From positions 2,418,001 through 2,482,000 of the forward strand of contig NZ_CP046884.1 of NCBI RefSeq assembly GCF_014522205.1: a stretch of DNA of 64,000 nucleotides, given 5' to 3'. The stretch comes from Corynebacterium poyangense. Its GTDB lineage: Bacteria; Actinomycetota; Actinomycetes; Mycobacteriales; Mycobacteriaceae. Numbering within the stretch: position 1 is the stretch's first letter; every line of letters begins with the position of its first letter. The notes beneath the pieces are model-generated. The model was not told where the DNA came from, ran no database searches, and saw only the letters and a program-made list of their open reading frames with translations. Both the position numbers and the translations under genes were made by a program. Shown here piece after piece: positions 24,561 through 43,480 of this stretch.

Positions 24561-26966
24561 ATGTTCGAAAAGTGGGGATATTTTGCCTACCGACATCGGC
24601 GAATCATCCCGATTGTCATTGTGGTGGCAGTACTAGCTCTCTATGGAGTGTTGGGAACCCGCCTGGCCGAAAGGATGAGCCAAGAAGGGTGGGATGACCC
24701 AGGTTCGGCGTCTACTCAGGCGGCCCAGATTGAAGAAGAAACCTTTGGCCGAGACAACAATGGCGACGTCATTCTGCTTTTCCATTCCCCTTCTGACCGC
24801 ACTCTGGATGATCCTCGCACCTTTGGGGCGGCCCAGGAACATCTTCGGAACATCGCAGAACTACCGCAGGTAGATCATGTCACCAGCTACTTTGATACCC
24901 GTAATGTACAACTCATCAACCAGGATCACACCGAAGCTTTTGCGGCGCTGGGGCTAAAAGGAGATGGTGAACAAACTCTCAAAGACTTCCGAGCCATCAA
25001 AGATCAACTTGTCGGGGAACTGCCTGGCGGCACTACCATCCAAGTAGCTGGCGCCACCGCTGTCGCCGATGCCCTTGATGAAGGAATGGCGGGCGACATC
25101 CACCGCGCTGAAATCTATGCCCTTCCCGCTGTCGGCCTCCTGCTCCTCATAGTTTTTGGCTCCGTTGTCGCCGCCGCAATGCCGCTGATTGTCGGCGTTC
25201 TGTCCATCCTCGGTTCCCTCGGGGTGCTTTCTTTTCTTGCTGGATTCACCCAGGTCAACATCTTCGCCCAATCAGTGGTAACGCTGTTGGGCTTAGGCCT
25301 AGCCATTGACTACGGTTTATTCATGGTTTCTCGGTTCCGCGAGGAAATGGATAAAGGAATCAAGGTAGAAACTGCTGTAGCAATAACTACGGCTACCGCA
25401 GGAAAAACCGTGGTGTTCTCCGCCGCGATGGTCGCGGTGGCGCTGTCGAGTCTTTTTGTCTTCCCCCAGGCGTTCTTAAAGTCAGTTGCCTACGGAGCGA
25501 TCTCCGCCGTAGGTCTCGCTGCTTTGCTGTCCCTAACTGTTCTACCCAGCATCTTCAGCATGCTGGGTAAGAATATTGACCGCTGGGCGGTGCGTCGAAC
25601 CTCAAGGAAAGCCCGTCGGCTAGAAGACACCTTCTGGTACCGTCTCCCCGCCTGGGCGATGAAACATGCCAAGGTTTCGACCGTGGTTGTTGCCGGCGTG
25701 TTGGTAGCTCTCGCCATTCCGCTGGTGGGCGTGACCTTTGGTGGGATCAATGAAACATATCTGCCCCCGAAGAATGAAACCAGGGTGGCCCAGGATGACT
25801 TCAACGACACGTTCCCGGCTTTCCGCACTGAACCAGTAAAACTGGTGGTGACAAACGCTGATAACCGTCAGCTCGTGCAGATTTATCAACAAGCTAACGC
25901 GGTTGAGGGGCTTACCGGGAGGTTCAGTGCTTCATCCACTAAGAACGGCACCACGGTGCTTTCCGCTGGTATTCAAGATCGTTCCTTGAATCAGCATGTG
26001 GTGGAACAACTGCGCAATATCTCCACCCCTGAAGGTGTGAAGATGTACGTGGGGGGCACCCCTGCCCTGGAAGTGGAATCCATTGAGGCACTACTCAATA
26101 AACTTCCGTGGATGGCTCTTTATGTAGTCATAGCGACTTTTGTCTTGATGTCCCTCGTCTTCGGGTCCCTCGTGCTACCGGCAAAAGCCATCATCATGAC
26201 TGTGTTAGGTATGGGGGCCACTCTCGGAATTTTAACCCTCATGTTCGTCGATGGTTTAGGTGCCGATCTCTTAAACTTCACCGCTGGTCCGCTGATGAGT
26301 CCTATCTTGGTGCTGCTTCTTGCCATCATGTATGGGTTGTCCACCGACTATGAGGTTTTCCTGGTTTCTCGAATGGTGGAAGCTAGGGATCGAAAAGCCA
26401 GTACTGACCAGGCTATTAAATACGGTACGGCCCACACCGGACACATCATTACTGCTGCTGCGCTCATTATGATTGTGGTTTGCGGGGCGTTTGGATTCTC
26501 CGAAATCGTGATGATGAAATACATTGCGTTCGGCATGATTGCGGCGTTGTTCCTCGACGCCACAGTAATCCGAATGTTCCTGGTTCCCGCCGTAATGCAT
26601 CTTTTGCGTGAAGATAACTGGTGGGCGCCAAGATTTATCCGCACCGCCTATGCACACCTCGGACATGGCGAGCAGGTGCCGGAACCTAGAGCCGAATATG
26701 TGCCAGCGGCTCGCCCCCATCCGGAGCCCGCTGCAGCTGCACAGCCTGTTTCTTCTAGCTCCGAGCCAGCTCCGGAATCTCCGCCGGCTGATCCATGTCC
26801 AGACTGGCACGAAGAAGATGAAGGGATCTATGAGGCGGAAATTGTGGAGGACCATGAGACTTCCCGCCACGGACGTCGCGCCCGAGACGATGATGAGCTC
26901 ATCCCCTTCTCAGAACTCATGCGACGATTAGAAATAGAGCAGCAAACACGAAACGAATTGGAGTAA
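24561..26966 (+). CDS. MmpL3-type RND transporter, trehalose monomycolate exporter
   Basis: An 801-residue RND protein with two repeats of one plus five helices and two periplasmic porter domains (about 30-185 and 395-515). The paired Asp-Tyr proton-relay motifs of MmpL3 are present in the helices at LAIDYGLF (Asp250-Tyr251) and LSTDYEVF (Asp596-Tyr597). The C-terminus is an acidic, Pro/Ala-rich cytosolic tail. Position beside trmB, the NYN gene and pckG equals that of Rv0206c (mmpL3); corynebacterial orthologues are called CmpL. It flips trehalose corynomycolate to the periplasm. AAGGAAGGG precedes ATG 24561. Confidence 0.93.
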   Translation: MFEKWGYFAYRHRRIIPIVIVVAVLALYGVLGTRLAERMSQEGWDDPGSASTQAAQIEEETFGRDNNGDVILLFHSPSDRTLDDPRTFGAAQEHLRNIAELPQVDHVTSYFDTRNVQLINQDHTEAFAALGLKGDGEQTLKDFRAIKDQLVGELPGGTTIQVAGATAVADALDEGMAGDIHRAEIYALPAVGLLLLIVFGSVVAAAMPLIVGVLSILGSLGVLSFLAGFTQVNIFAQSVVTLLGLGLAIDYGLFMVSRFREEMDKGIKVETAVAITTATAGKTVVFSAAMVAVALSSLFVFPQAFLKSVAYGAISAVGLAALLSLTVLPSIFSMLGKNIDRWAVRRTSRKARRLEDTFWYRLPAWAMKHAKVSTVVVAGVLVALAIPLVGVTFGGINETYLPPKNETRVAQDDFNDTFPAFRTEPVKLVVTNADNRQLVQIYQQANAVEGLTGRFSASSTKNGTTVLSAGIQDRSLNQHVVEQLRNISTPEGVKMYVGGTPALEVESIEALLNKLPWMALYVVIATFVLMSLVFGSLVLPAKAIIMTVLGMGATLGILTLMFVDGLGADLLNFTAGPLMSPILVLLLAIMYGLSTDYEVFLVSRMVEARDRKASTDQAIKYGTAHTGHIITAAALIMIVVCGAFGFSEIVMMKYIAFGMIAALFLDATVIRMFLVPAVMHLLREDNWWAPRFIRTAYAHLGHGEQVPEPRAEYVPAARPHPEPAAAAQPVSSSSEPAPESPPADPCPDWHEEDEGIYEAEIVEDHETSRHGRRARDDDELIPFSELMRRLEIEQQTRNELE

Positions 26967-26967
26967 C

Positions 26968-28017
26968 ATGCAGGCCTCGAAGAGGAAGATCATCACCTGG
27001 ACTATCTCCCTCTTCGCTCTCCTGTGCATTTATATTGCATTCCGCAAACAACTAGGCTTCATCGAAGAAGGCATCGCTACCCTCGGCCAAGTATCGCCAC
27101 TCAAAATTCTTTTAGTTTTTCTCTTCATCGCTCTTGCGCTCGTCGCCATGGCGGAAGTGATGTACCTGCTACTAGAAAACGGTGCGCCCCGGATGCGTCG
27201 TCGCGATACCACCCGGTTATCCTTTGCCGCTAACGCCTGGGCCACAACCCTACCCGGCGGCCCCGCCTTCGCCGCTGTGTTCTCCTTCCACGTCCAGCGC
27301 AGCTGGGGAGCCAGCGTCGTTCTATCCTCATGGTTCATCGTCCTCTCCGGAGTCCTATCAAGCATGTGGCTTGCGGTGCTCGGACTGCTCGGGGTATTCC
27401 TCTTAGGCGCCCACCTTTCCCTCGCCTCACTATTCAGCACCTTAGCCCTCATGTTCGCTGTCGCAGCAGCAGTGTTCTACATCTCCCGCAACCCAGAGTT
27501 TCTCGCTCACGGTGTCATCGCTCTGATCACCCGCTTTAATAAACTCACCCGCGCCCCAGCTAACCGCTGGGTCGATACGGTGAGGCACCAAATCCTTCAA
27601 CTTCGTTCCGTGGAACTCAGCCCAACACGCTTCAGCCTCGCCGCTTTTTGGTCCCTCATGAATTGGGTTTTTGACATCCTCGGACTGTGGGCTTCTGTTT
27701 GGGCTATCACCGGCTCGCTTCCCTGGCTTGAACCCGAACCCGACTCCACCACTCTCGTCGGCGTGGTCCTTGCTTTTGTCACCGCAAAAATCGCTGGCAC
27801 CGCCCAAGTCACCCCCGGTGGCCTCGGTACCGTTGAAGCTGCCCTCGTGGGAACCCTTGTCGCTACCGGCATGACTGCCACCACCGCCACCGGAGCAGTG
27901 ATTATCTATCGTCTGATTTCCTTCATCGCTATCACCGTTATTGGCTGGGTGATCTATGTGATTCACTACGCCCGAAGCGGATTCAAACCCACCAGAAGAT
28001 TAAGCTCGAAGTCATGA
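26968..28017 (+). CDS. Flippase-like membrane protein (LPG-synthase TM / YbhN family)
   Basis: A 349-residue protein with about eight membrane segments and the family region LSFAANAWATTLPGGPAFA early and KIAGTAQVTPGGLGTVEAAL late, both features of the lysylphosphatidylglycerol synthase transmembrane (UPF0104/YbhN) family. It lacks the soluble aminoacyltransferase domain, so lipid translocation is more likely than lysinylation. The start ATG follows the mmpL stop by one base, and it overlaps the next gene by four bases (ATGA), implying tight co-expression with the mycolate exporter. Confidence 0.85.
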   Translation: MQASKRKIITWTISLFALLCIYIAFRKQLGFIEEGIATLGQVSPLKILLVFLFIALALVAMAEVMYLLLENGAPRMRRRDTTRLSFAANAWATTLPGGPAFAAVFSFHVQRSWGASVVLSSWFIVLSGVLSSMWLAVLGLLGVFLLGAHLSLASLFSTLALMFAVAAAVFYISRNPEFLAHGVIALITRFNKLTRAPANRWVDTVRHQILQLRSVELSPTRFSLAAFWSLMNWVFDILGLWASVWAITGSLPWLEPEPDSTTLVGVVLAFVTAKIAGTAQVTPGGLGTVEAALVGTLVATGMTATTATGAVIIYRLISFIAITVIGWVIYVIHYARSGFKPTRRLSSKS

Positions 28018-28388
28018 CTAAACCCGCTATCGCTGGCATCGATGCCCTCGCTATATTCCTGTTCGCTCTCCTTGCTCGGATAGCTCATAATTCCGCCGAT
28101 CTCCCCTTATCTTTCCTCGGAATTCTCAACTCAGCCTGGCCATTTTGGCTAGGTCTGGCCCTGGCGTGGGCGATTATTTATATCCGACGTCTACCTGGCC
28201 TTCCGCTCTCTCCGGCGGGCGTTCTTATCTGGGTGTGTTCCGTCGTCGTAGGCCTTGCAATCTGGGGTATCAAGCACGCCGCTTTCCCCCACTGGAGCTT
28301 CATCCTGGTAGCGGGAATTACCTCAGCAATCTTGTTATTTGGCTGGCGTTTCCTCTACTCCCGGTTCTGCACGAAGAAACGTGGCTAA
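28014..28388 (+). CDS. DUF3054 family membrane protein
   Basis: A 124-residue protein with four membrane segments, opening AGIDALAIFLFALLARIAH and containing FWLGLALAWAIIY, which matches the DUF3054 family of small actinobacterial membrane proteins. Function unknown. Its start overlaps the previous stop (ATGA), so it is the last intact gene of the trmB-mmpL series; the following GNAT frame begins inside its 3' end. Confidence 0.78.
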   Translation: MTKPAIAGIDALAIFLFALLARIAHNSADLPLSFLGILNSAWPFWLGLALAWAIIYIRRLPGLPLSPAGVLIWVCSVVVGLAIWGIKHAAFPHWSFILVAGITSAILLFGWRFLYSRFCTKKRG

Positions 28389-28830
28389 ACTTTATCCTGT
28401 AAAATCTTCTATCCGCTATCAAGGTGAAAAGCACCTTCCTGCCTCAGAGCTTGAGGATTTATATAACTCCGTGGGGTGGGGTGCCTACACCTCCGATCTT
28501 GAAGCGTTAGTTTCCGGAGTAGGGAATTCCCGGTACGTCGTTACCGCCCGCGATGATAACGGCACACTACTAGGATTAACCCGAATTGTTGGGGATAGCC
28601 ACACCATTGCTTACTTGCAAGATATCCTGGTTCGCCCCACTACCCAGCGCCAGGGAATAGGGCGAGAACTCATGAACCGAGTTTTTCAACCCTTTATACA
28701 CTGCCGGCAGCACGTCCTGATCACCGACGGGTAGGACAAACAGCGGAAATTCTATGAAGCACTGGGGTTTTGCGAATACCGAGACTTCACTGGCTTGGAA
28801 TCTCGATGCTTTCTTCGCTTTCAAAACTAG
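28381..28830 (+). pseudogene. GNAT N-acetyltransferase with in-frame amber stop
   Basis: The frame from GTG 28381 encodes a GNAT domain with the acetyl-CoA loop DILVRPTTQRQGIGRELM (R/Q-x-x-G-x-G/A). A TAG at 28732-28734 interrupts it after HVLITDG. The same frame then resumes with KFYEALGFCEYRD, the usual closing strand of such proteins, and ends at TAG 28830. A Glu codon (GAG) would fit at the interruption, so one base change explains the break. The truncated product of 117 residues lacks the last helix and strand and is unlikely to be functional. Confidence 0.8.
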
Positions 28831-28838
28831 GCCACAAC

Positions 28839-28890
28839 ATAGCCCCTGCGGTGTCATCCTGATACAGATAACCGCAGGGGCTATTTTTTA
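28839..28890 (+). terminator. Rho-independent terminator closing the trmB-mmpL operon
   Basis: ATAGCCCCTGCGGT (28839-28852) pairs perfectly with ACCGCAGGGGCTAT (28871-28884) and is followed by TTTTTAACC. This is the clearest intrinsic terminator in the window. It serves the rightward transcript and may also halt the leftward small gene at 28920-29027. Confidence 0.88.
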
Positions 28891-28919: not shown

Positions 28920-29027
28920 TTAACGGAACTGGCTGATGAACTTGTTGATTTCAAAACCAGCGTAATCAGCTGCCACAACCACAGCGTTGATCAGTTCACC
29001 GATGATGTCAATGGTGATGCTCAGCAT
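28920..29027 (-). CDS. 35-residue amphipathic peptide, porin-like small protein candidate
   Basis: ATG 29027 to TAA 28920 encodes 35 residues opening MLSITIDIIG and closing FISQFR, with a hydrophobic centre (NAVVVAADY) flanked by charged and amide residues. GTGGAGG lies eight bases upstream, a near-perfect ribosome site, and a TACACT -10 candidate lies at 29074-29069. Codons are strongly biased to ATC, AAC, GCT, TTC and AAG, as in abundant corynebacterial proteins. Corynebacterial outer-membrane channels PorA and PorH are similarly short, acidic to neutral and lack a signal peptide; the resemblance is in size and character, not in a recognised motif. A small membrane peptide or regulator is also possible. 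Confidence 0.65.
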   Translation of the reverse strand: MLSITIDIIGELINAVVVAADYAGFEINKFISQFR

Positions 29028-29223
29028 AAGTTTATCCTCCACTTAAGGATCGGTAATCGGGATTCTTTAGTGTAATCCCCTGGGGTCTTTACATCGTTAC
29101 ACGATAGCCGGATTTCTCCAGAAACTTTCTACCCAGATAGGGGTAGTGTGATGTGTTTCTCTTCCCATCCTTTAATCTTAAAAACTAGTCAGATTATTCC
29201 TTGGAGCTAGAAAGATAATTCTC

Positions 29224-29727
29224 ATGAAAATCAAATTTTCCCGCCTCGTTGCCGTTCCAGTTCTCCTCGGCGCCCTCACTTTTAGCACCGCATGCAGTGG
29301 AGATTCCAAGGAAACGTCCACTTCTACGAGCACCAGTACCAGTACCTCTAAATCCAGCAGCTCCTCAAGCTCTACTACCCGTTCAAGCGGACACATGATA
29401 ACCGAGGGAGAGCAAAGCGGCGGCCAGAACCAGGAACCGCAACCTCAGGGCGGATCCGGCTCTTCCGGGGGACATCATCACAACGCTCCGGCGCCAGCCC
29501 CAGCACCGGCACCTGCAGCTGGAGGCGCAGCTCCTGCCCCGGCGCCTGGCGGTGAAGCTCCTGCCCCTGCCCCCGAAACGCCGAAACCAGGTGAAGAAAA
29601 ACCCGGCGATGATAATAAGGATGACAACAAAACCACAACCACTAGCACTGCGTCATCGACCGCAACTCCAGATGAGGGAGACAAGGACAATAACACTGGA
29701 GGCGGAGAGGGAAACGGCGGGAACTAA
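29224..29727 (+). CDS. Low-complexity lipoprotein
   Basis: A 167-residue protein with a lipoprotein signal (MKIKFSRLVAVPVLLGALTF, then STAC with Cys24). The mature part is almost wholly disordered: a run of Ser/Thr dipeptides (STSTSTS and a Ser block), a Gly/His/Gln patch, an Ala-Pro repeat (APAPAPAPA) and an acidic Asp/Asn/Lys/Thr tail. It is likely anchored in the inner membrane and spans part of the wall. The repetitive DNA may vary in length between strains. It diverges from the 35-residue gene with a 196-base promoter region. Confidence 0.72.
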   Translation: MKIKFSRLVAVPVLLGALTFSTACSGDSKETSTSTSTSTSTSKSSSSSSSTTRSSGHMITEGEQSGGQNQEPQPQGGSGSSGGHHHNAPAPAPAPAPAAGGAAPAPAPGGEAPAPAPETPKPGEEKPGDDNKDDNKTTTTSTASSTATPDEGDKDNNTGGGEGNGGN

Positions 29728-29754
29728 ACCAATTGCCTCCAGTCCGCCCCAGTT

Positions 29755-29802
29755 AAAAACTCCATTAAAGACACTATTCTTCATTCATGCCTTTAATGGA
29801 GT
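29755..29802 (-). terminator. Intrinsic terminator of the genK-genH transcript
   Basis: ACTCCATTAAAG (29759-29770) and CTTTAATGGAGT (29791-29802) form a perfect 12-base stem with a 20-base loop. On the leftward strand it is followed by TTTTTAACTGG, giving a T tract. It lies 70 bases beyond the genH stop and also follows the rightward lipoprotein gene. Confidence 0.8.
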
Positions 29803-29872
29803 CCCAAAACCTGACTTATGAGTGTTCTACTGCCGTTCAGTTTTACAAGTCGTCTCCTCTAGCTGAAGACTA

Positions 29873-31192
29873 CTAAGAACCAACAATATCTTTTAATTCT
29901 TCAGGCATTTTTCCTAGATCCGGGTTCTTCACATATGCCCTTTCTCGATGGTCATACCGCCAGAGCCAATCTGCATACTTGTACCAACCGGTTCCGCTAA
30001 CAGCACGAAACAGCTCATTTCTGATAGCCCTAGCACGGCCAGACTCGTGCCAGAGATCCCCCCAGAACCGCCCAGTTGTTTGGATTCTAGTACACCGTGG
30101 AATCCGTTCCGCTTGTACTTCGTCGAGAATATGGTCCCAATTTACTTCACCATTTTCAGCCACGTAATCAGCTGCATAATCAGCAATGCAAGCAGCATCT
30201 TCCATAGCCATTACTGCTCCCGACGCCAGGTACTGCAAAGGAGGGTGCGCTGCGTCACCTAGGAGAATAATACGGCCCTTCTTCCAATTATCTAAAGGCT
30301 CGCGATCACTCATCTTCCACCATCGATCTTTCCAAAGATAATCAACGCGACTTTGAACCGATTGATGACAATGTTTATAAGCTACCGAGAGTTCTTTATT
30401 TGTTCCCCATTCTTCAGGTACAGCCCCGTTGTCAATCGCGTCGAAATAATTTTTTGACCTAAATACACCCACTTGATTTAGTAGCTCTCCACACCGCAAA
30501 GGGTATTGGATGAAATGACAATCTGGGCCAATGTAACCCAAAACATCCTCTAATTCACTCATGCCTTTATCTTCAGCAAGTGAGGATGTTCCGCGATAAG
30601 CAACATATCCAGAAGGAACAGGCTGATCTGAAATAAACTTCTTTCTGAGAGTAGAGTGAATCCCATCAAAAGCAAGCAAGACTTCCGCTTCAACAGACCG
30701 TAGACCGTGCTGGTCTTTAATCTCTGCCTTCACTTTGACGCAATCACCTTCATGCTCAGTGGCTGCATCCACTACTTTCACGTTATTCAATAACTGCGCC
30801 CCAGCGTCTCGAGCTGCATCTACCAAAATACTTAGTAAGTCTGAACGGTGAATGACCAAGTACCGACCGCCGTAGTGTCGTTCAAAATCTTCATCAAAGC
30901 TAAGTCTTAACAAGTCATCACCAGAGACCGCATCTCGGAATTGGATTGCTTTTGGGAGATAACCGGCATTAACTGCTATATCGAGAACTCCCCACTGTTC
31001 TAGCATCCTCCACCCATGAGGACCTATTTGGAGTCCTGCTCCGACCTCTCTGAACTCTGCCGATTTTTCGAAGAGTTCTACAGCCGCACCCTTTTGTGCT
31101 AAAGCTAGCGCAGCAGAAACACCACCAATTCCCCCACCCGAAATGATGATTCTCGTGCCCTCCAAAGAAGCATTGTTTTCTTTTAAGTTCAC
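29873..31192 (-). CDS. genH: 3-hydroxybenzoate 6-hydroxylase (FAD monooxygenase)
   Basis: About 439 residues of the class A flavoprotein monooxygenases. The N-terminal Rossmann motif is [17 protein letters not shown], the DG motif [10 protein letters not shown] lies mid-protein, and the GD motif [20 protein letters not shown] continues as in known 3-hydroxybenzoate 6-hydroxylases. It uses NADH and O2 to make gentisate. Neighbouring transporter, regulator and ring-cleavage genes confirm the pathway; nagX is a synonym. GTG 31192 has GGAAGG seven bases upstream and is preferred; ATG 31207 lacks such a site. Confidence 0.92.
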
Positions 31193-31229
31193 TTTTCTAC
31201 CTTCCATAGTTCTGCATTTTTGGTCTTGC

Positions 31230-32498
31230 TCACTTGAGCTGTTTACGCAAGACCAGGAACATCAAAAACGATGACAGTAATGCCGAGAACCCAAAGAGAA
31301 TGAAATTAGAGTTGACACCGAATCCCCACCCTAAAAACAGGCCAGCAAGTTGAGGGGCCACTACCGCCCCAATTCGACCAGTACCTAGTGCCCACCCTAA
31401 GGCTGTGCCCCTCAAACTACCCGGGTATCCATTTGCAATGGCAGCAATTATCAAAATCTGGGACCCATGCGTTCCTACACCAGCACAAATCAAAATTAGA
31501 TAGACTGCCCAAACCGGTGGCATAACCAATAAAGAGCAAAGTGCCACACCTGCTATAAAGGCAGCGATAATACCCGCTTGAAGTGGTCCGAATCGGTCTC
31601 CAGCCCAAGCGGTGAGTCCTGATCCAATAATTGCACCGATGTTCAGGGCAAGAGTGAACAGTAATGCTGCACCTAAGTCATAACCAGCGGTTTCCATTAA
31701 CCTGGGAAGCCAAGTTCCAAGTCCGTACCACGCAAATAGCGTGACAAAGGTTGCCAAAGCGAACCAGAGCGAAATCGTGCGGTATTTGGAACCAAGCAAA
31801 TCTTTGAAACCTGAACTTTCCGGAACGGCAGCTTTCTTGTTGGCGTCAGGTTTTAGATCTTTAGGTAGATACTTCATCGCTAGCGGTATTCCAACCGCTA
31901 GGGGGATAACTGCAACAAGGAACATTATTCGCCAGCCCCATTCTGGATGGCTTGGTACTACGCCTGTTCCGAGTAAAGCTGCCAAGGATCCACCGAGGGG
32001 AACCCCAGACATCATGAGGGTTGCCCACGCCGACATTGTTCGTCTTGGTGCTACCTCAGCAGTTAAAGCGTTGACTGATGGGACTAAACCACCTAAACCT
32101 AAACCAGCAACGAACCTTAAACCCCCGAAAAACCATGGGTTTGGCGCAAAGGCGCAACAGACAGTGAATACCGAGAGAATAACCACAGATAGCAAGACAG
32201 CCTTTTTTCGACCAACAAGGTCAGAGATCCGACCGATAAAGATGGCTCCCAGGGCCATCCCTAAAAAGGCAGTGGAACCTATGGTTCCCAGAGTGGTATT
32301 CGTTAAATTCCATTCTCTAGCCAAAGAGGTCTGCACGGTGCCATAAACAATCAGGTCATAGCCATCGAATATTACAAAGACCCAGCACACCAGTAATGCC
32401 ACAAGCGAGGATCCGCTGACCCCTAAAAAGCTTAGACGTTTAATGCTGCTCTTATCTCTCTCCTCACCTATCTGAGGAGTAACTATTACTTCCGTCAT
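31230..32498 (-). CDS. genK: MFS aromatic acid/proton symporter
   Basis: A 422-residue major facilitator with twelve membrane segments, of the AAHS (aromatic acid:H+ symporter) family. Recognisable are [18 protein letters not shown] in helix 1 with the functional Asp residues, [15 protein letters not shown] in the 2-3 loop and DRFGPLQ in the 8-9 loop. It probably imports 3-hydroxybenzoate and gentisate. It is 22-37 bases upstream of genH and divergent from genR with a GenR-like box between them. No strong ribosome site precedes ATG 32498. Confidence 0.92.
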
Positions 32499-32537
32499 AT
32501 TGAGATAGTGACTGTGATGTAGGATATAGAAAAGATT

Positions 32538-32554
32538 TTTCCGCTATTTGGAAG
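32538..32554. promoter_or_regulatory. GenR-like operator between genK and genR
   Basis: TTTCC-N7-GGAAG, matching the ATTCC-N7(5)-GGAAT pattern that I recall for the C. glutamicum IclR regulator GenR in all but the outermost bases. It lies in the 64-base divergent gap and overlaps the ribosome site of genR, which would allow control of genK and autoregulation. Confidence 0.55.
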
Positions 32555-32562
32555 ACAAATCT

Positions 32563-33378
32563 ATGCTCACTCCCCCACCTTTTACCTCTCAGCCCAAGGA
32601 CTATCTCGCCACGGTTGATCTGGCTCTCGTTAGCGTTTTGCTTCTTAGAGAAAAGGGAAGCACTTCGGTTACTCAGCTGGCGAAGGACCTTGACATTAAT
32701 CCCCCCAGGGCCCACCGAATCCTCCAGATGCTGACCTACCGTGGTTTTGCAACCCGAACAGAGTCTCGGACCTATCTAGCTGGCCCTTCACTGTCTTCCA
32801 CGGGGATTAAACCTGGGTATGGTTTTGCACTTACACGGCTAGTCCAGGATCACATTACCGCGATCTCCCGTGAGAGCCATGAAACCTGCCACCTAATTGT
32901 GCGCTCTGGGACCAATTGCCATTTCCTTCATTCTGAAGAAGGATCTCTGCCCGTTCGGGTAGGAAACCGAAGAGGTCAGGTTATTCCAGCTCATCTAAAT
33001 TCTGGAGGATTAGCTACTCTCACCGATCTCTCCACACACGAATTATCCAGCCTATATCCTGATATGGGGGAGAAAGAGATGCTGGATTTACGTCGGGTTC
33101 TGCATCGAGTGAGAAAGCAAGGATTCGCCGTAAATCAGGGAATGTACGAAAAAGATGTATCCGCCATCGGCATTGCATTACGCAACGATGTTGGTGATAC
33201 GTTAGGAGCGCTCTCTTTGGCGATTCCTACTTCAAGATTCCGCCAGGTCAGGGATCGCTGTATCGAAATAATGGTTCGTCGTTGTAAGGAACTCAACCAA
33301 GTTCTCGAGAAGAACCACACGACGCATTCCGAATCTTTGAAGAGAGTAAAGATCTCAACCACGGGAATTCATCCCTAA
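32563..33378 (+). CDS. genR: IclR-family regulator of gentisate catabolism
   Basis: A 271-residue IclR-type regulator. The winged helix-turn-helix (VSVLLLREKGSTSVTQLAKD then INPPRAHRILQMLTYRGF) is followed by the IclR effector domain, including QGMYEKDVSAIGIALRND. ATG 32563 is preferred because GGAAG lies eight bases upstream; TTG 32548 would add five residues. Orthologues repress genKH and activate or repress genDFM in response to 3-hydroxybenzoate and gentisate. It lies between the two divergent transport/hydroxylase and ring-cleavage operons. Confidence 0.92.
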   Translation: MLTPPPFTSQPKDYLATVDLALVSVLLLREKGSTSVTQLAKDLDINPPRAHRILQMLTYRGFATRTESRTYLAGPSLSSTGIKPGYGFALTRLVQDHITAISRESHETCHLIVRSGTNCHFLHSEEGSLPVRVGNRRGQVIPAHLNSGGLATLTDLSTHELSSLYPDMGEKEMLDLRRVLHRVRKQGFAVNQGMYEKDVSAIGIALRNDVGDTLGALSLAIPTSRFRQVRDRCIEIMVRRCKELNQVLEKNHTTHSESLKRVKISTTGIHP

Positions 33379-33379
33379 T

Positions 33380-33396
33380 TTTCCAATATATGGAAT
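33380..33396. promoter_or_regulatory. GenR-like operator upstream of genD
   Basis: TTTCC-N7-GGAAT, with the same half-sites and spacing as the site in front of genR, two bases after the genR stop and 89 bases before genD. Recurrence of one palindrome at both promoters of the cluster supports a shared regulator. Confidence 0.6.
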
Positions 33397-33485
33397 GTGC
33401 TTTGGATTACAAACATAGGCTCCTAAATTTTAGGCAGAGAGCTAATCGCATTCGAATCAATTTGGCTATCTGACTAGTTATTTTC

Positions 33486-34673
33486 ATGAAAACGATTGAG
33501 CTGCGTGGAAAGCGAGGGAACGTGGATAACTTAGATGCCGAGGTTAAAACAGAGTTACTCGGCGAGGACCATAAGGCTGTGCGAGAGTCATGCGTAGTGC
33601 CCGGCCCTATCCCTGAAGAAGCCGAGGAACTGGAGCAAATTTACCAAGAGATGGAAAACCTCAATATCAAACCTTTATGGACTCAGATTGATGGACTTAT
33701 GCCTTCAACCCCTGAGCCCAAGGCAGTTTCCCATCATTGGAAATGGGAGGAACTCTACCGTCTAGCAAAAAAATCGGGAACTCTAGTTCCCGTAGGCCGA
33801 GGAGGAGAGCGCCGTGCGATCGGACTCGCCAACCCAGGTCTTGACGGCAATACTTACATATCACCTACTTTGTGGTGTGCAATTCAGTACCTCCAACCGG
33901 GAGAAAACGCACCAGAACATAGACACTCCCAAAATGCTTTCCGATTTGTGTTGGAAGGTGAAGGCGTTTGGACGGTCGTTAATGGTGATCCCGTCCCTAT
34001 GCGTAGAGGTGATTTCTTGCTAACTGCAGGATGGAACTTCCACGGTCACCACAATATTGCGACAGAACCGATGGCATGGCTAGATGGCCTCGATATTCCA
34101 TTTGCTCATCAAATGGATTCTGGCTTTTTCGAGTTTGGTTCTGAAGAACTAACCGATCAAAGCACTCCAGAGAAATCTCGTTCTGAACAATTATGGGCAC
34201 ACCCCGGACTTCGTCCCCTGGCTTTCCCTGGACCCATGAGCTCTTCTCCCATTGGCCGTTATGCCTGGGAACATACAGACAGCGCGCTTAATGCTCAGCT
34301 GGAGCTAGAAGATGCCGGGTACCCCGGTGTCTACGAGCCGGGACATGCCGCTATTAGATTTAGCAATCCAACAACTGGTGGAGATGTGATGTCTACTATT
34401 AGGGCTGAATTCCACCGCTTACGGGCTAACGTCTCCACTAAGCCGCTCTACGAAGTCGGAAATCGCGTCTTCCAAGTTTTCGAAGGCCAGGCCACCGTCC
34501 AAGTTGGTGAGCAAACCTTCAAAGCAACTAAAGGCGACATCGTTAACGTCCCATCCTGGCAGCAATGGCACATTGAAGCTGGAAATGAAGGTGTCGATCT
34601 GTTCTGTTTTTCAGATCACCCGATATTCGAAGCCCTACACCTGAACCGTACATTCTCTCCGAAAGGAATCTGA
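33486..34673 (+). CDS. genD: Gentisate 1,2-dioxygenase
   Basis: A 395-residue bicupin ring-cleavage enzyme. The first cupin has metal-binding residues in [16 protein letters not shown] (His145, His147) and in GWNFHGHHN (His186/His188). The second cupin (about 290-385) lacks a full histidine set, as usual for the family. It opens gentisate with O2 using Fe(II) to give maleylpyruvate. It leads the genD-genF-genM operon; genF starts four bases after its stop. nagI is a synonym. Confidence 0.95.
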
Positions 34674-34677
34674 ACAT

Positions 34678-35505
34678 ATGCGTCTCGCTACTATTCGGCA
34701 AAACCAGACCACCTCTGCAGCACGGATAGAGACTGAAAATACCGCAGTCTTAATCCCCGGATTCAAGGATCTTGGTGAACTCCTTACAGATGCAAACTGG
34801 AGAAACATCGCGAAGGACGCTTCAGGGCAATTAATCGAGTTCGAGAAAACTGATTTAGCGCCTCTCGTTCCTAATCCCCGGAAGATTATTTGCGTTGGCT
34901 TAAATTATGCCAACCATATTCGGGAAATGGGGCGGGACCTACCAAAGTACCCGACTCTGTTCGTGAAGTTCGCTGAAGCACTCACCGGCCCTTATGATGA
35001 CATCGAAGTTCCGGCCTATGGTGCCGAAGCTCTTGATTGGGAAGGCGAACTTGCCGTTGTAATTGGAAAAACCGCACGTCGCGTTAAGTCCTCTGAGGCC
35101 AAAGATTACATTGCTGGCTACGCAGTCATGAATGACTATACCCAGCGCGACCTGCAATACCGCACTCTGCAATGGCACCAGGGAAAGTCTCTGGAGAAGT
35201 CCGCTGGATTCGGCCCATGGCTTACGACCACTGACTCCTTCACCTTTGGTGGTGAGCTAGCCACTTATGTAGGCGAAGATAAAGTCCAGTCAACTCCAAC
35301 AAATGATTTGGTTTTCAAGCCTGAAGACTTAGTAGAGTACATTTCTCACATCTATCCACTTGTCCCTGGCGATATCATCATTACCGGCACCCCTGGCGGC
35401 GTCGGCCATGCAAGCGATCCCAAGCGATACATCCAGGATGGTGAAACTGTAAGAGTTTCAATCGAAGGCTTAGGGGAAATTGCAAACAAAACGGTGATTG
35501 TCTGA
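34678..35505 (+). CDS. genF: Fumarylpyruvate hydrolase (FAH family)
   Basis: A 275-residue fumarylacetoacetase-fold protein with [15 protein letters not shown], the metal-binding region [26 protein letters not shown] and the C-terminal [11 protein letters not shown]. It hydrolyses fumarylpyruvate to fumarate and pyruvate, the last step of the gentisate route. It is followed by genM with a one-base overlap (TGATG), so translation is coupled. Confidence 0.94.
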
Positions 35506-36242
35506 TGGATGAAAACTTTCACGATTTACCTCTTTCGGGGCAATTAACCCTCACTCGTCAAGGGACAGCTCATTATTCCGGGCAAATAGCCCAATTGTCT
35601 TCCGAGGATTTTGATGAACCCACTCTTCTGCCTGGCTGGTCCAGAAAACACCTCATAGCCCATGTTGCATACAACGCTGCTGCACTTTGTAACCTGATGC
35701 ACTGGGCAGAAACGGGTGAAAGGACCCCGATGTACTCCTCGCCTGAAGCACGGCTACGAGAGATCGAGTTTGGCGCGACGCTAGATCCTGATCCACTGCG
35801 CAATCTCCATGCGCACACTGTGGCCCGCCTAGACGCGGCTTGGCGGGAGGCTACTTCTGAGGCTTGGCAATACCAGGTGGAAACAGCCCAAGGAAGAAGC
35901 GTCCCAGCATCGGAAACACTATGGATGCGAACCCGTGAGGTCTGGATTCATGCGGTAGATCTAGGGCTCAAAGCTTCTTTCGAGGAAATTCCTTCTATTA
36001 TCCTTAAATCCTTGCTAGAGGATATTACTTCTAAGTGGCGTAGCAGCGGAGTTGGAGTGGGTCTGACTTTGGTGGATCCTGCAGACCAACTGGAAGTTAC
36101 GGTTTTATCCTCCAGCGAGGAGCCAGAAACGATTATTTCCGGCGGTTTGTCCGGCCTCGTTCGCTGGGCTTCAGGAAGAGGAGCAGAAGGGGTTACAGCT
36201 CTGGATCGAGAGAGTGTTCCTTCGCCACCTCGCTGGTTATAG
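35505..36242 (+). CDS. genM: Mycothiol-dependent maleylpyruvate isomerase
   Basis: A 245-residue protein of the DinB-like mycothiol-dependent isomerase family. The N-terminal helical bundle has the metal-site histidines in LPGWSRKHLIAHVAYNA and REVWIHAVDLG, and a smaller C-terminal domain follows. It isomerises maleylpyruvate to fumarylpyruvate using mycothiol in place of glutathione, as expected for an actinobacterium. nagL is a synonym. It is the last gene of the genDFM operon. Confidence 0.93.
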   Translation: MDENFHDLPLSGQLTLTRQGTAHYSGQIAQLSSEDFDEPTLLPGWSRKHLIAHVAYNAAALCNLMHWAETGERTPMYSSPEARLREIEFGATLDPDPLRNLHAHTVARLDAAWREATSEAWQYQVETAQGRSVPASETLWMRTREVWIHAVDLGLKASFEEIPSIILKSLLEDITSKWRSSGVGVGLTLVDPADQLEVTVLSSSEEPETIISGGLSGLVRWASGRGAEGVTALDRESVPSPPRWL

Positions 36243-36320
36243 GTCAAACGCTTCAGCCGATAATCCTCTAAACTGTGCTCGTTGTAATTTTCCTAGTCTG
36301 TTATGAAGGATTACCTCTTC

Positions 36321-37025
36321 ATGAGCACAGAAGACTCTCATCCTCGCCCTGAGCTTCCGCACTATTTCAAGAATCCACGGAAGATCGACTACGTGATCTT
36401 CGGATATATGGCGCTGAGCGTAGCTGTCGGGCTCATCGCCCTACCGCTGAGGGTGTGGTTGATTAACCGCCCGGAGATATACGCTCTTTTCATCGGTGGT
36501 TTTACCTCCGCTGTAGTCGGTGGCGCCCACTCCACCGCCGGCGGCAGTCCCATTGTCCTTATTGTGGCGTTATCGCTGGTCGGTGCACTATGGACAGTTC
36601 CGCTATGGTGGCTGGTGGGCCGTCACTGGGGTGCGGAATATCTAGCGCAGCTCACTGCTTCTTCTAGCCGGACTCGTTATTGGGTGAACCGCCTCCAAAA
36701 GCTCCCAGCACCGTGGCTGCTAGCTGCAACCATTATCTCCTATGTTCCCTTTATGCCAACTTTGGTGATATGCAATATCCTCTCCGGAATTAAGGGAATA
36801 AAACTGTGGCTGTTTCTTGTCACCAACGCTGTCGGTGTCATTCTGCGTAACACTTTCTTCGCTCTCTTAGGCGCCCGCTTCGGTGAGGAGGTCATCGAGG
36901 TCGTGAACCAAATTAACCGCTACGCGCTGTGGGTTACGCTCATCCTCATCGGTGTCATGTTCTACTCCGCCTATAAGAAAGGCCGACGCACCCCGCCGCC
37001 GGCCAGCCCTTCTACATCGGCATAA
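36321..37025 (+). CDS. VTT-domain (DedA-like) membrane protein
   Basis: A 234-residue membrane protein with about five hydrophobic segments and the VTT/SNARE-associated core, including a GG-rich loop (VVGGAHSTAGG) and LLAATIISYVPFMPTLVI. DedA-type proteins take part in lipid carrier or phospholipid flipping. ATG 36321 has GAAGGA nine bases upstream and is preferred over ATG 36303. Its 3' end overlaps the convergent accD3 gene by 14 bases. Its place next to the mycolate locus suggests an envelope function. Confidence 0.8.
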   Translation: MSTEDSHPRPELPHYFKNPRKIDYVIFGYMALSVAVGLIALPLRVWLINRPEIYALFIGGFTSAVVGGAHSTAGGSPIVLIVALSLVGALWTVPLWWLVGRHWGAEYLAQLTASSSRTRYWVNRLQKLPAPWLLAATIISYVPFMPTLVICNILSGIKGIKLWLFLVTNAVGVILRNTFFALLGARFGEEVIEVVNQINRYALWVTLILIGVMFYSAYKKGRRTPPPASPSTSA

Positions 37026-38568
37026 TCGTGTGTTTCTTCGGAAGATCTGCGTCTTGTTTATCAGCCATCTGTCTTAAAGCTCGACGCAGCGCCAGCCGGG
37101 TATCTCGCGGCTGAATCATGGCATCGATATAGCCGCGTTCAGCAGCTACATAGGGGCTGGTCATGTTTTCATCATAGAAATCCATAAACAGCTTCTTGAG
37201 GTATCCTCGCTGTTCGGGCGGTGCCGCTGCTAGTTGTTTTCCTTGCAGCATAACCACAGCTGCCGCTGACCCCATGACCGCGATCTGCGCCGTTGGCCAG
37301 GCCAAGTTAATATCACCGGTCAGATTCTTTGAGCCCATCACGGCATAGGCGCCGCCATAGGCCTTCCGCACAATAAGCGTGATTTTTGGTACGGTTGCCT
37401 CCACCACGGCAAAAGCTAGCTTTGCCCCGCGGTGAATAAGACCTACTTTTTCTTGTTCCACACCCGGCAAATATCCAGGGGTGTCAACCACAAACACCAG
37501 CGGGATATTATAAGCATCACAGATCCTGATAAACCGTGCGCCTTTATCCGCAGCATCAGCATCAATACAGCCTGCGTATTGCATCGGCTGGCTTGCTACA
37601 AATCCCACACTTCGACCATCTATCCGACCAAATGCGGTTATCAGGTTCGGAGCAAAATTCGGCTGAATCTCTAAGATATTCTCGTCGTCACCTAATTTTT
37701 CCAACAGCTCAACCATGTCGTATCCGGCATTAGTATCATCCGGCATAAAGGAGTCAAGCTCTAGGTCAACGCCTATTTCTTTATCGCTAGGGGCTTCGAA
37801 AAGTGGGCTTTCCTCGAAGCAGGTAAGAGGAAGATGATCGAGGAGTTCATGAACTGCATGGAAAGCGGCTTCTTCACTCTCAACCACAAGAGAGACGTTT
37901 CCGTTGTGTTCTTGCTGTCGGGCACCGCCTAATTCGGCAGAGGTGATGTCTTCTCCAGTGACTTCTTTAATCACCGCGGGACCGGTGACATACATCTCTG
38001 CTTCCCCGTCAACAGCAATAACGAAATCTGTTGTCACCGGAGCGTAGACCGCACCACCTGCACATTTACCCAGCATGATGGAAATTTGTGGACTACGCCC
38101 AGAAAGCGGCATTTGGCGTCGGGCGATCTCTGAATACATGGCCAGGGAGGTCACCGCATCTTGGATTCGGGCGCCGCCGGAATCCTGAATCCCGATCACC
38201 GGGCAGCCAATCCGAATAGCCATGTCCATGACTTCGCAGACTTTTTTACCGAAGGTGACCCCCACGGAACCACCAAACACCGTCTTGTCATGTGCATAGA
38301 TAGCCACTGGACGGCCATCTATACGACCATAACCAGTGACAACACCATCGGAGTAGGGGGCGTCTTCCTCGCCAGGGGTCTTCCCCAGGGCACCAATTTC
38401 GACGAATGTTCCCTCATCCAACAGCGCGTTAATCCGCTGGCGTGGGGTAGTGCGACCCGCCTCGTCGCGTTTAGCTCGAGAATGCTCGGAGCCAGGGTCC
38501 TGTGCCTTCTCCAAGCGGGCCCGCAAATCTGCGATCTTCTCCGCGGTGGTCCTCGCGGTCACACTCAC
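37012..38568 (-). CDS. accD3: Acyl-CoA carboxylase beta subunit of the mycolate locus (AccD4 equivalent)
   Basis: A 518-residue carboxyltransferase with both crotonase-like halves. VIGIQDSGGARIQDAV and LVFVVDTPGYLPGVEQEK are biotin/acyl-CoA binding regions, and KAYGGAYAVMGSK forms the second oxyanion loop. With a biotinylated alpha subunit encoded elsewhere it carboxylates the long acyl chain that Pks13 condenses. Start GTG 38568 follows GGGAAGG. It begins nine bases after pks13, the order fadD32-pks13-accD found throughout mycolate-producing bacteria. Confidence 0.93.
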   Translation of the reverse strand: MSVTARTTAEKIADLRARLEKAQDPGSEHSRAKRDEAGRTTPRQRINALLDEGTFVEIGALGKTPGEEDAPYSDGVVTGYGRIDGRPVAIYAHDKTVFGGSVGVTFGKKVCEVMDMAIRIGCPVIGIQDSGGARIQDAVTSLAMYSEIARRQMPLSGRSPQISIMLGKCAGGAVYAPVTTDFVIAVDGEAEMYVTGPAVIKEVTGEDITSAELGGARQQEHNGNVSLVVESEEAAFHAVHELLDHLPLTCFEESPLFEAPSDKEIGVDLELDSFMPDDTNAGYDMVELLEKLGDDENILEIQPNFAPNLITAFGRIDGRSVGFVASQPMQYAGCIDADAADKGARFIRICDAYNIPLVFVVDTPGYLPGVEQEKVGLIHRGAKLAFAVVEATVPKITLIVRKAYGGAYAVMGSKNLTGDINLAWPTAQIAVMGSAAAVVMLQGKQLAAAPPEQRGYLKKLFMDFYDENMTSPYVAAERGYIDAMIQPRDTRLALRRALRQMADKQDADLPKKHTIMPM

Positions 38569-38577
38569 ACCTTCCCT

Positions 38578-41500
38578 CTATGAAAGGTTCTTAATCCGAC
38601 GCGTCAAATCCGCGCCAACCTTCCCAATTTCCGGTTCATCCACGACGCCTAAGTGGTCGCCACGGAGCTGAACAATATCCAAGTCCTCCACGATAGCGGA
38701 CCAACCACCATCCGGGTCAATTTCGGCATAGTGGGGTTCTAATTCAATGGCCCCATCATGCATCCGCTCCGCTTTATACAGTACGACAGGAACCTGGACT
38801 TTTTCCCAGCGCCGGAAATCTAATTTATCGAGAATCCGGTTATCTACAAAACTGTGATGCTGGTGCTGCAACACTGCCGCTGATAGCCCGTGAGCCGAAG
38901 CATCCGCAGTAGCCAAGAACTCCTGGATCATCCCGAGCACCGCGTCCTCACCCGCAGAATCAAGTAATTCTAGGGGAATCGGAAAATCTATATCATAGGT
39001 CTTCTTCGCGAAAGCGGCATAGCGCTGCCATCGGGCGCGGGTTTCCTCTGGAGTATCTGGGATGGGGGTACTGGGCTGAACGGTGTCAAGCAGCGCAATT
39101 AACTTCACATCCACGTCAGTGCCCTGAAGTTGAGAAGCCACCTCATAAGCCAAGGCACCGCCGAAACTCCAACCACCGAGAATTACTGGGTAACCGTCAG
39201 CGTAGCGGCGGATATCGGCCACATACTCGGCTGCGCGTTCTGCCAAGCTCCCCTCCCGGCGCTCTACCCCATATACCGGCACAGAATCTGGAAGACGTCG
39301 GGTTAATGGCTGGTAGGTCACCGTGGAGCCACCGGCTGGGTGGAACATGAATACCGCTGGCGCGGTAGACCCCTCTGGTCTGGCTCGAAGCACCCGGATA
39401 TTGCCTTCAACCTCGGTTTCAAAACCTTCCCGAACCTGGTTGGCTAAGGGTTCTAGGGTTTCAGCAGCTAATACGTCAGCGGCATTAATCTCTACCCCGG
39501 CGCGTTCACTAAGGCGCTGCGCAATACGTTCCGCCGTATCTTCGCTTATAGGTGGCAGGGGGCTAGTTACCCCTGGCACGGCGCTGCCAGTTATTCCCGC
39601 CCAGGTTCCAAAAACCATTCGTTCTGAAGCGTCTCGGGGTGCTACTGCGGCAGCATTACTTGCTGGGCGTTCCTTCACATCTGGGGTGAGTTCCTGGGCC
39701 GGGGCGGCGTTCCCGTGGCGTTGAGCCACGAGATCTTCCACCATGGTGACCACATCAGCAACCGAGGCATCTCGTAGAGCTTGCACCTGTAGCGGTGGAA
39801 TTTGGAAGTCATTTTCCACTCGGTTTTTAATTCTCATCCCCATAAGAGAGTCCAGCCCTAAATCAATAAGCGGTAACTCTCCTGGTAGATCATCGACGTC
39901 ATAGCCCATGGATTCAGAAACAATGGCTCGCAGTCGATCCTCGACACTTTCACCGCTCGTAGGATCCCAGCGCCATTGCTCGACCTCGGGTTCTTCACTG
40001 ATTTCCGGATCCACATCCTGTTCTAGGGCAGGTTGATCTTCCTCTGAATCAGCGGCACCGGCATTCTGGGTGAGGAAAGTACGGCTGCTAGCGGTAGTAG
40101 CAAAAGCCTGAGCCACCAATTGAACTGAATTCTCCCCGCGGATGTGGTACAGATCCACGGCTAGACCACCTACACTCCGCTGTACCGTGCAGGTTAATTC
40201 TCCCTCTGCTGGCAGATCACCCGTATCCACACTGTGTACTACCTGGGCGTCGGGATCCACGGCGGCGGCAGCGGCTTCAAGCACCGCTCCCGCTGAGGGA
40301 GCCTGATCTGCATTCGTGGAAAAGGCGACGCTGCCGTCGGGCATGGTGACCCGTTGCCCCGGCAATCCGCGGTTGCTGGAGCTTGCAAAGCGAGCATTGG
40401 TCCAATACCGCTGATGTTTCCACACCTGGTGCGGAGCGGGCAGCACTGTGCCCGGACCGTAGAACCAGCTAAAGTTCACTAGCTGACCGGCGCAATAGAG
40501 TTTTGCCGCAAGGTCGCTCAGAGAATCCGTAGCCGAAACTTTCCGCTTCAACACATATAACAGCTTGGCATTGGGTTGCCCGACGCTAAAAGCGGTATTC
40601 ATCATGCCCATCAAGGCAACCGGGTTGGGGGCAATTTCCACCATCGTGTCATGCCCAGCAGCAAAAGCAGCCTCTGTGGCAGCCTGGAAGTGGACGGACT
40701 GGCGGGTGCACCGGGTCCAATATTCGGGATCATGAACTACCGACCCCTCCGGGTACGTAACCCCTTTATCCACCGAGCTAAAGAGAGGGATGGTCAGCGG
40801 TTTCGGGCTGATCATCGCGCATTCAGCGGCTAATTCCCCAAGGATCGGCTCCACTGCTGAGGTATGGCCTGCGCCCTTCACCTGAAGTAAGCGAGCAAAT
40901 TTCTCCTCAGCGGCTAATTTCTCTACCAGCGCACTGACCTGATCCCGTGGACCACCAACAGTAGTCATCCCCGGCCCGGCATACACAGCCGGCTCTACCT
41001 GGGCAAACTGTGGATCCTGATTGAGTTCCGATAGTTGTTCGGGACTTAATTCCACCACTGCCATGGCCCCGAGTTGGTCCTCCAGCAAACTTGCTTCCCC
41101 CTCACCCATCAGCCGGGATCGGTGAGAAGCAATAGTCAAGGCATCCTCAGCGCTTAAGCCTCCACAGGCATAGGCCGCGGCGATCTCCCCCATGGACATG
41201 CCCATGACCGCAGCCGGGCGGATCCCCAGCTTAGTCAGATAATCTGTTAAGGCTATTTGAATAGTGGTGATGGAGGTTTGCGCAGTCTCAGTGCCATAGG
41301 TTTGCTCATCATCGTCAATGAGCTCCATGACTGACCAGCCGACTTCCCGTGTTACGACCTCGTCGAGTTCCTGGATGCGGCGGCGGAAAAAGGGAGAGAG
41401 TTCGCATAGGTCTTTCGCCATTTTGCGGTGCTGGGAGCCGAAACCGGAGTAAACAAAGACTGGGCCCATCACCGCTGGAGAGTCCGCCTGGTGAATCCCT

Positions 41501-43392
41501 GTGCCGGTTTTACCCTCCGCTATGCGACGCAACCTCGCAATAGCTTCTTCCATGGTGCTAGCTTGTACTGCCGCTCGAGAGCGCCCATGATTACGCTTCG
41601 CTAGAGAACGGGCTAGGGGAACTAAATCTTCGTCCCCATAATCGCTAAGGAAATCAGCGAGGGCTTCAGCGGCTTCTCGACGACGCGAAGGTAGTAACCC
41701 AGATACCGGTAGCACCGCAGCAGTAGGCGTCGAACCTTCAGGGGTTGCTAGTTGGGCATGGAGATTATCTGAGTCTTCGTGCTCGGGATAGCGGGCTGGG
41801 TCATAGTCACTAACCACCACATGGGCGTTGGTGCCGCCGAAGCCGAATCCGGAAACTCCGGCGATGCGATGGCCCGAATAAGCCGGCCATTCTCGTGGAT
41901 CTTCCACTACTTCCAGGTGCTCAGCATCAAAGTCGATAAAACGATTTGGGGTGCTGAAGTGTAAAGATGGCGGCAAGGTGTCATTCATCAACGACAGCAC
42001 CACTTTAATCATTCCGGCTGCTCCGGCTGCCGCCTCAGTATGGCCGAAGTTTGTCTTAGCAGAACCGAGCAGCAGCGGATCCCCCATGTCACGACCCTGC
42101 CCCAACACAGCTCCCAGCGCGGTAGCTTCAATAGGATCACCCAAAATCGTGCCCGTACCGTGGGCCTCTACGTAATCCACCTCAGCGGGATTGATACCGG
42201 CATCGGCATAGGCGCGTTGCAGTACCGCAACCTGAGCCTCCGGATTAGGTGCGGTAATACCGTTGGAGTGGCCGTCAGAGTTCACTGCGCTTCCGCGAAT
42301 GACCGCCAAGATATTATCTCCATCGCGTTGGGCATCGGCCACCCGTTTGAGTACCACTACCCCGGCGCCTTCGCCACGGATAAAACCGTCCGCATCATCG
42401 GAAAAAGCGTGGATGTGACTGGTGGGGCTTAAGACTCCGAGTTCCCCGAACGCGGTGTTAATAAAGGGATTAGCTAGTATGTTGACGCCACCCGCCAAGG
42501 CGACTGAGATTTCCCCAGTGCGCAAGGCCCGAACTGCCTGGTGTATCGCCACGAGGGATGAGGAACAAGCCGTGTCAATAGCGATAGAGGGGCCTCGGAA
42601 ATCAAAGGCATAGCTGACTCGGTTGGCAATAATGGACGTCGCGGTGCCGGTCATGGCATAGGGATGAGCTTCGGCTGGATCAGCGGAAACAAGAACCTGA
42701 TAATCATTAGCTGATGAGCCAAGGAAAACGCCGACGTCGGTACCTCTAAGCTCATTAGCGGGAAGATGAGCGTGTTCGAGAGCCTCCCACACCAATTCCA
42801 GGATGATGCGCTGCTGCGGGTCGGTGTTGGCGGCTTCTAGCGGAGAGATCCCAAAAAACTCGGCGTCGAAATGAGCGATATCTCTCAAGAAACCGCCGTC
42901 GTTATTGGTGTTGTCAATTTTTCGGCTCATCTCCGGGTCGTGAGAATACTCACTCCACCGTCCCATAGGGAGCGGGCCGGTCCCATCCTGTCCGGCAACT
43001 AGAAGTTCCCACATGGCCTCAATGCCGTTGTCCGCCCCTGGGAAGCGCGCTGCCATGCCTACCACCGCGATGTCATGGATTTCTGGTGCGGTAGCGTTGT
43101 GCTGCGGAAGGTTCGACGGTAGGGCTGCAGGAGCCGTAGGTTCTCCAGATAATAAACGAGTAGCTAAAGACGCGATGGTGGGATGTTCATAGACGATCGT
43201 GGCGTCGAGCCTGGTGCCCAGGAGGTTTTCTAATTCCCCGGACAGTACTACCGCATCTCGGGAGGACAATCCTAAGGACTCCAAGGGCCGGTCCTCAGTA
43301 ACTTCATCGAGCGGCAAACCGGTGGCTCCGGCTACCCACTCTCGAAGCCAGCTCCGCAGTTCCTGCGTGCTCATATCCATACGCGACGTCAT
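38578..43392 (-). CDS. pks13: Polyketide synthase Pks13, mycolate condensase
   Basis: A type I PKS of about 1604 residues with the Pks13 domain order. N-terminal acyl carrier (LGLSSRDAV, about 12-85); ketosynthase (IDTACSSS with active Cys about 276, EAHGTGT and [10 protein letters not shown] histidines, 107-530); acyltransferase (GMSMGE nucleophile, about 650-950); second carrier (LGLDSLMGM, near 1190-1260); thioesterase (GGWSFGGA, about 1370-1600). It condenses a meromycoloyl-AMP from FadD32 with the carboxylated acyl chain and transfers the product to trehalose. ATG 43392 is preferred; ATG 43380 has better ribosome spacing. Confidence 0.97.
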
Positions 43393-43480
43393 CCTTATCA
43401 AAAATTAAGAGTTAACCTCGTTCATTATCGTGCATGCCGAAGCAATTGTTACGCGTAGACACACCGCTGAAGAACACTAC

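Follow-up and report, generated by a model that had tools for sequence, protein, structure and literature searches.

The window analysed here is a 64-kb stretch of Corynebacterium poyangense DNA (G000:C1:2418001–2482000 of a 2.62-Mb genome) in which the first-pass annotation had picked out a 35-codon frame running from ATG to TAA behind a GTGGAGG ribosome site. Both features hold, and translation places the gene on the minus strand at 28920–29027 (−) (the peptide itself at 2446923–2447027 in genome coordinates), with the ATG at 29027, the TAA at 28922–28920 and the ribosome binding site, read directly, at 29042–29036 (−). The minus-strand product of 29027–28920 is MLSITIDIIGELINAVVVAADYAGFEINKFISQFR, and the plus strand gives an unrelated string over the same coordinates. 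An alternative GTG start five codons upstream would extend the product to 40 residues, and we prefer the ATG because the relatives described below start at ATG.

The peptide gene is convergent to a plus-strand unit which includes an MmpL3-type mycolate exporter (24561–26966 (+); matches MMPL and, below its cut-off, NF052608) and ends with a DUF3054 gene (28014–28388 (+)). Between the two units lies a 13-bp perfect inverted repeat, read directly at 28840–28883 (arms 28840–28852 and 28871–28883) with six T (28884–28889) directly after it in the plus-strand direction, which is probably a terminator serving chiefly the plus-strand unit; its 18-base loop exceeds the limit of the terminator scan, which did not list it. 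We note that a GNAT-like acetyltransferase frame at 28339–28831 (+) has an in-frame TAG at 28732–28734 and then stays open for about 30 codons, and is either a decayed gene or the result of a sequencing error. On the other side, a stretch of about 8 kb (29224–37025) holds a lipoprotein-like gene and a catabolic cluster of gentisate type (the other genes of the stretch are those for an FAD monooxygenase, an MFS transporter, an IclR regulator, a gentisate dioxygenase, a fumarylacetoacetate hydrolase type protein, a maleylpyruvate isomerase and a VTT-domain-like protein). This parts the peptide gene from an accD3-type carboxyltransferase gene (37012–38568 (−); TIGR01117 below cut-off; protein ending in DLPKKHTIMPM), which we name accD3 because it adjoins pks13 (38578–43401 (−); NF040607 above cut-off), and fadD32 lies beyond (43551–45482 (−); NF040633 above cut-off).

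Single-sequence searches with the peptide gave weak matches (best non-self E 0.2, and 0.012 across 242 Corynebacterium genomes). Several of the short weak matches adjoined a DUF3054 gene, and we therefore took DUF3054, which has a match in 239 of the 242 genomes, as the synteny anchor and collected 100 stretches (88 from the DUF3054 listing, with parts skipped, and 12 chosen for their peptide hits). With the window included, 50 of these 101 stretches contain a family member (E < 1e-4) and a further two a borderline one, a rate biased upward by the sampling, and all 52 members (the two borderline ones included) are oriented convergently with the DUF3054 gene. Members have 27–38 residues and the majority consensus MLSSALDLxGDIINxxxMxxN, with D7 the sole invariant residue in the seed alignment. 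A profile built from 38 members matches 127 of the 242 Corynebacterium genomes at E ≤ 3.5e-4 (the next match stands at 0.006), and among 249 genomes drawn from the order it matches two at E ≤ 0.01, both of them Corynebacterium. The peptide has no match in Pfam, NCBIfam or Rfam or among PDB sequences, and of the 114 clusters listed by the protein search (21 query rows, one of which contained a typing error) most are nameless, the others are hypothetical or uncharacterised apart from one with an ABC-permease label, and none has a Pfam domain. Some annotations do predict members as hypothetical proteins, such as B840_11580 of C. marinum and BJ985_001500 of C. tuberculostearicum, and the open-access papers listed by our literature searches included none on a peptide behind accD3. 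As far as the sequence searches reach, the family is a so far unnamed one restricted to Corynebacterium.

The possibility that the frame arose by chance, or belongs to a non-coding RNA that happens to contain an open frame, draws on its very short length, on a codon bias that says little about expression, as GroEL2 lacks it, and on a pooled pN/pS of 0.90 over 1149 more distant pairs (pS below 0.6), a value we discounted because we read it as saturation combined with biased third positions. It is hardly credible given the 14 close pairs (chosen so that no sequence enters twice; codons 2–25; no more than 12 changes), where 45 synonymous and 29 non-synonymous changes with about a quarter of sites synonymous give a pN/pS of 0.21 (binomial P 3e-11), and given a Shine-Dalgarno match of at least four bases in 65 of 68 family loci (from 120 scanned stretches, some picked for having peptide hits), a helical periodicity found in 38 of 38 members and the conservation seen at the protein level. 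With its homologues, constant strand, purifying selection and promoter motif, the 35-residue frame is a real gene, far beyond chance, and the conservation in related species that the first-pass annotation had set as a requirement is borne out by the homologues in 127 genomes of the genus and the close-pair ratio. The remaining 115 of the 242 genomes are without a member at E ≤ 3.5e-4, including C. uropygiale, the nearest relative by accD3 in our named collection (93% accD3 identity; the window's own record may be missing from that collection), and the peptide is therefore either dispensable or fast-evolving.

In many members the upstream DNA contains the end of a gene whose product terminates in DLPKKHTIMPM, that is, accD3. 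Among 80 named accD3 loci (the last eight, from Rhodococcus/Rhodococcoides, lack the peptide) 44 hold a member, two of these being borderline and 2.3–2.5 kb away. The distance from the accD3 stop to the peptide start is 16–222 nt (median 71) in 41 of the 80 loci and 258 nt in a 42nd (L245). The peptide is present in C. striatum, C. minutissimum, C. aurimucosum, C. tuberculostearicum, C. riegelii and C. glaucum, and was not found in the fetched accD3 stretch of C. silvaticum, C. jeikeium, C. pseudodiphtheriticum or C. gallinarum. The 41 loci with a short gap establish the usual order as fadD32–pks13–accD3–peptide, facing DUF3054–flippase-like–MmpL3, and this order is probably ancestral; judged by gene order, the peptide gene is the predicted last gene of the mycolate operon fadD32–pks13–accD3 in the relatives. 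Borderline relatives beginning MSSALSTAVDLLTDIPG lie some 2.3–2.5 kb behind accD3 (L089 405–506 and L099 396–497, counted from DUF3054, and also L243 and L244). It should be noted that the mycolate exporter operon and the lipoprotein gene named as neighbours by the first-pass annotation are less telling than accD3–pks13–fadD32, the usual neighbour in relatives which here lies about 8 kb off.

This constancy of place bears on a reading of the peptide as a type I toxin, a small membrane-damaging product held down by an antisense RNA, which would suit its size and its hydrophobic helix with a polar stripe. We regard this as very improbable, as one operon is kept as the neighbour in 41 named loci, no genome has two copies at E ≤ 3.5e-4 among the matches listed, a search of 72,556 plasmid records gave nothing for the window's stretch, and Rfam gave no match in the window.

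Upstream of the peptide gene there is a sigma-D-type promoter motif, GTAACG-N17-GAT, at 29075–29100 (−) (−35 at 29100–29095 and −10 at 29077–29075), and sigma-D control is predicted from this motif. The C. glutamicum sigma-D consensus given in PMC6338062 is GTAAC(A/G) with GAT, and the spacing rule of N16..18 comes from the present analysis. Using it, GTAACn-N16..18-GAT was found in 33 of 53 non-redundant family upstreams, with spacings of 17 and 18 and a median distance to the start codon of 48 nt (two of the 33 are further off at 81 and 114 nt and are perhaps due to chance), compared with a mean of 0.26 (maximum 2) in shuffled upstreams and 9 of 1040 random stretches from the same loci. A reading of the TGTAAC repeats as an MtrA-type site was dropped once the spacing from GTAAC to GAT fitted sigma-D. 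Twenty of the 53 upstreams are without the motif; where the distance to accD3 is known for these (19 members), the peptide gene starts 14–129 nt behind it and may be carried on the accD3 transcript. Among the six members without an accD3 end in the fetched stretch (in the window it is about 8 kb away) five keep the motif. The sigma-D regulon members named in PMC11175481 are fadD2, pks, pccB, porA, porH and protX. In the 64-kb window, GTAAC(A/G)-N16..18-GAT occurs four times on both strands together where shuffles give 1.25 expected. Besides the peptide's own motif, one site lies just upstream of pks13 (GTAACA-N17-GAT at 43452–43427 (−)), another (50274–50249 (−)) shortly precedes the listed start of a mycoloyltransferase-like gene of the esterase family at 49186–50220, and the fourth is inside that esterase-family gene.

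The family was also compared with Pks13 across genomes, where we took Pks13 to be absent if the best E fell between 2e-14 and 2e-9, as for other ketosynthases, or if there was no match at all, and excluded the incomplete genomes G218 and G260. None of the 12 near-complete genomes without Pks13 carries the family, even at E ≤ 10 (Fisher p 9e-5, a value which ignores the kinship of the genomes). Pks13 and DUF3054 are both present in many genomes that are without the peptide. By neighbourhood, promoter motif and co-absence, the family is tied to mycolate synthesis.

Such ties could also mark a micropeptide of the plasma membrane which attaches to a mycolate enzyme or exporter (MmpL3, or Pks13/FadD32/AccD3) and modulates it, and small membrane proteins are known to tune RND transporters in other bacteria. 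The place of the gene behind accD3 and convergent to the DUF3054 gene which ends the MmpL3 unit would fit such a tuner, as would a hydrophobic helix able to span the plasma membrane, a net charge of −1 to −4 in 36 of 38 members and the failure to find the family where Pks13 is absent. We nevertheless think it unlikely: Pks13 and DUF3054, the two of these neighbours searched across genomes, occur in many peptide-less genomes, the peptide gene persists in the window though parted from accD3, and a partner-binding site would be expected to keep the sequence more constant than it is in the seed alignment, where D7 alone is invariant.

AlphaFold2, run on the single sequence, predicts one helix over residues 2–34 with a mean pLDDT of 93.7. 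Across 37 members, positions 3, 4, 7, 11, 14, 21, 22 and 25 are polar in 59–97% and all fall within 60 degrees of one helix face, while the remaining positions from 5 to 23 are polar in no more than 24%; position 18, on the polar face, is hydrophobic and M or W in most members. The helical moment exceeds that of shuffles (z > 1.64) in 38 of 38 members, with the window peptide alone barely above them (p 0.04). Of 38 members, 24 have a serine within their final four residues (at 32 of 35 in the window peptide), and the absence of a signal peptide was judged by eye. The modelled shape suits a membrane helix that packs a polar stripe against its own copies. The first-pass description of a leaderless and amphipathic small gene is upheld, and the gene is also conserved and linked to the mycolate envelope.

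Leaderless amphipathic helices of 27–38 residues would also be expected of a secreted surfactant or antimicrobial peptide, a reading modelled on the phenol-soluble modulins of staphylococci (the resemblance is one of general type and is not sequence-based). This would leave the linkage to mycolate genes and the sigma-D motif without reason, and a Pfam scan of 38 members at E ≤ 10 gives six unrelated families at chance level with no toxins or haemolysins among them, so that we hold it to be improbable.

Codon use had been put forward as a sign of high expression, and the bias towards C-ending NNY codons is indeed present in the peptide gene (12 of 15, while 13 large genes from the window together give 719 of 1479). 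It is weaker evidence than claimed, as the count for this genome's GroEL2 is only 49 of 100 and the family's excess over accD3 is small (315 of 392 versus 3499 of 4861 over 40 loci). Since GroEL2 is without such a bias, we do not accept codon use as proof of high expression.

We consider that the peptide may be a leaderless, sigma-D-controlled mycomembrane peptide of the ProtX/PorH kind, and would give this reading a probability of about 0.5; that it functions as a porin is a fair guess. In such a scheme, sigma-D would drive the peptide together with the mycolic-acid enzymes, and the peptide, like ProtX, PorA and PorH, would need no signal peptide to pass through the plasma membrane. It would then be anchored in the mycomembrane, probably by O-mycoloylation of S3/S4 or of a serine close to the C-terminus, and might oligomerise with the polar stripe facing inward, forming either a pore or a structural mycomembrane peptide. 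Few mycomembrane proteins are known in corynebacteria, with four porins and ProtX named in PMC9671496, and a conserved peptide which is encoded with mycolate enzymes and carries a sigma-D motif represents a concrete candidate for a part of the envelope.

The same place behind accD3 can also hold other short frames. C. glutamicum, which gives no match to the family at E ≤ 10, carries at 57 nt from its accD3 stop a frame of 27 residues, MATIFAVLSGIDFLSVSLSYLQGFLSY, with AGAGGAG as its ribosome site and GTAACG-N16-GAT upstream, and four further frames of 25–28 residues occur at this position in three other loci (L162, L237 and L239). In L162 (G079) two different short frames of 27 and 28 residues stand in tandem behind accD3, each with TAAGGAG. 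The five frames resemble the family in their place and good ribosome sites, and three of the five have an LSGID-like core; they differ from it in a weaker helical moment and, for the four other than C. glutamicum, in having no promoter motif. In C. uropygiale, a candidate of 35 residues lies 768 nt behind accD3 and lacks the sigma-D motif. The short frames in the accD3 slot may be either distant homologues or replacements. We tentatively suggest, at somewhat under even chances, that the last cistron of the mycolic-acid condensation operon, under sigma-D, represents a class of fast-evolving mycomembrane micropeptides with at least two sequence types in one slot (one being the C. glutamicum 27-residue frame), by which peptide and mycolate would be made in step. 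With its own frame in this position, C. glutamicum would allow the question to be addressed in the model strain.

Among known systems, the porins are the obvious comparison, and the first-pass annotation had suggested a small mycomembrane porin as a new member of the PorA/PorH type. The peptide is short and leaderless with a predicted amphipathic helix, as the PorA/PorH porins are, and PorA/PorH, PorACj and PorACur are likewise tiny, leaderless, helical and from the same genus (published porin lengths are 37–57 residues in PMC3792995 and PMC5944148, with PorACur at 37 and PorACj at 40). In these two sources the PorA and PorH genes are placed between groEL2 and ppk2, whereas the peptide gene lies outside this interval, and the likeness to PorACj and PorACur is one of description and not of sequence. 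The groEL2–ppk2 interval of the same genome (PPK2 match at G000:C1:2285970–2286650, GroEL2 match at 2287980–2289500) has two frames of its own, which we label PorA-like (69 residues, L165 2494–2703 (−)) and PorH-like (78 residues, 2760–2996 (−)) from their place and size, although both are longer than the published porins; the PorH-like frame has no sigma-D motif within 200 nt. Against the family profile they score −0.8 and −1.5 bits, respectively, and 686 and 960 of 2000 shuffles attain these values. We therefore do not regard the peptide as a PorA/PorH family member, as the porin-like frames of this genome sit at groEL2–ppk2 and score no better than shuffles, and neither Pfam nor NCBIfam gives a match to the peptide itself. 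Next to another PPK2 gene in this genome we also noticed a 39-residue amphipathic frame with AAGGAG, beginning MADLALSIT (L164 1169–1288 (−)), which has no match to the family profile and is possibly another small envelope peptide.

A width of 50–80 Å is given for the mycomembrane in PMC12632848, and many family members, at 27–33 residues, are short for this. ProtX of C. glutamicum (cg2875) is described in PMC5310785 as having 38 residues and being O-mycoloylated on Ser37. We located it via a primer printed in that article, and on this ground took the genome as C. glutamicum; the serines read from the genome (3, 10, 21, 32, 37 and 38) agree with the published description. ProtX is encoded at another locus, its Ser37 is mycoloylated whereas mycoloylation of the family is only proposed, and it gives a weak match to the family profile (4.6 bits, a score reached by 31 of 2000 shuffles). 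In layout, however, ProtX is like the family, being leaderless, with 38 residues, a serine at position 3, an aspartate at position 6 and a Ser-Ser end.
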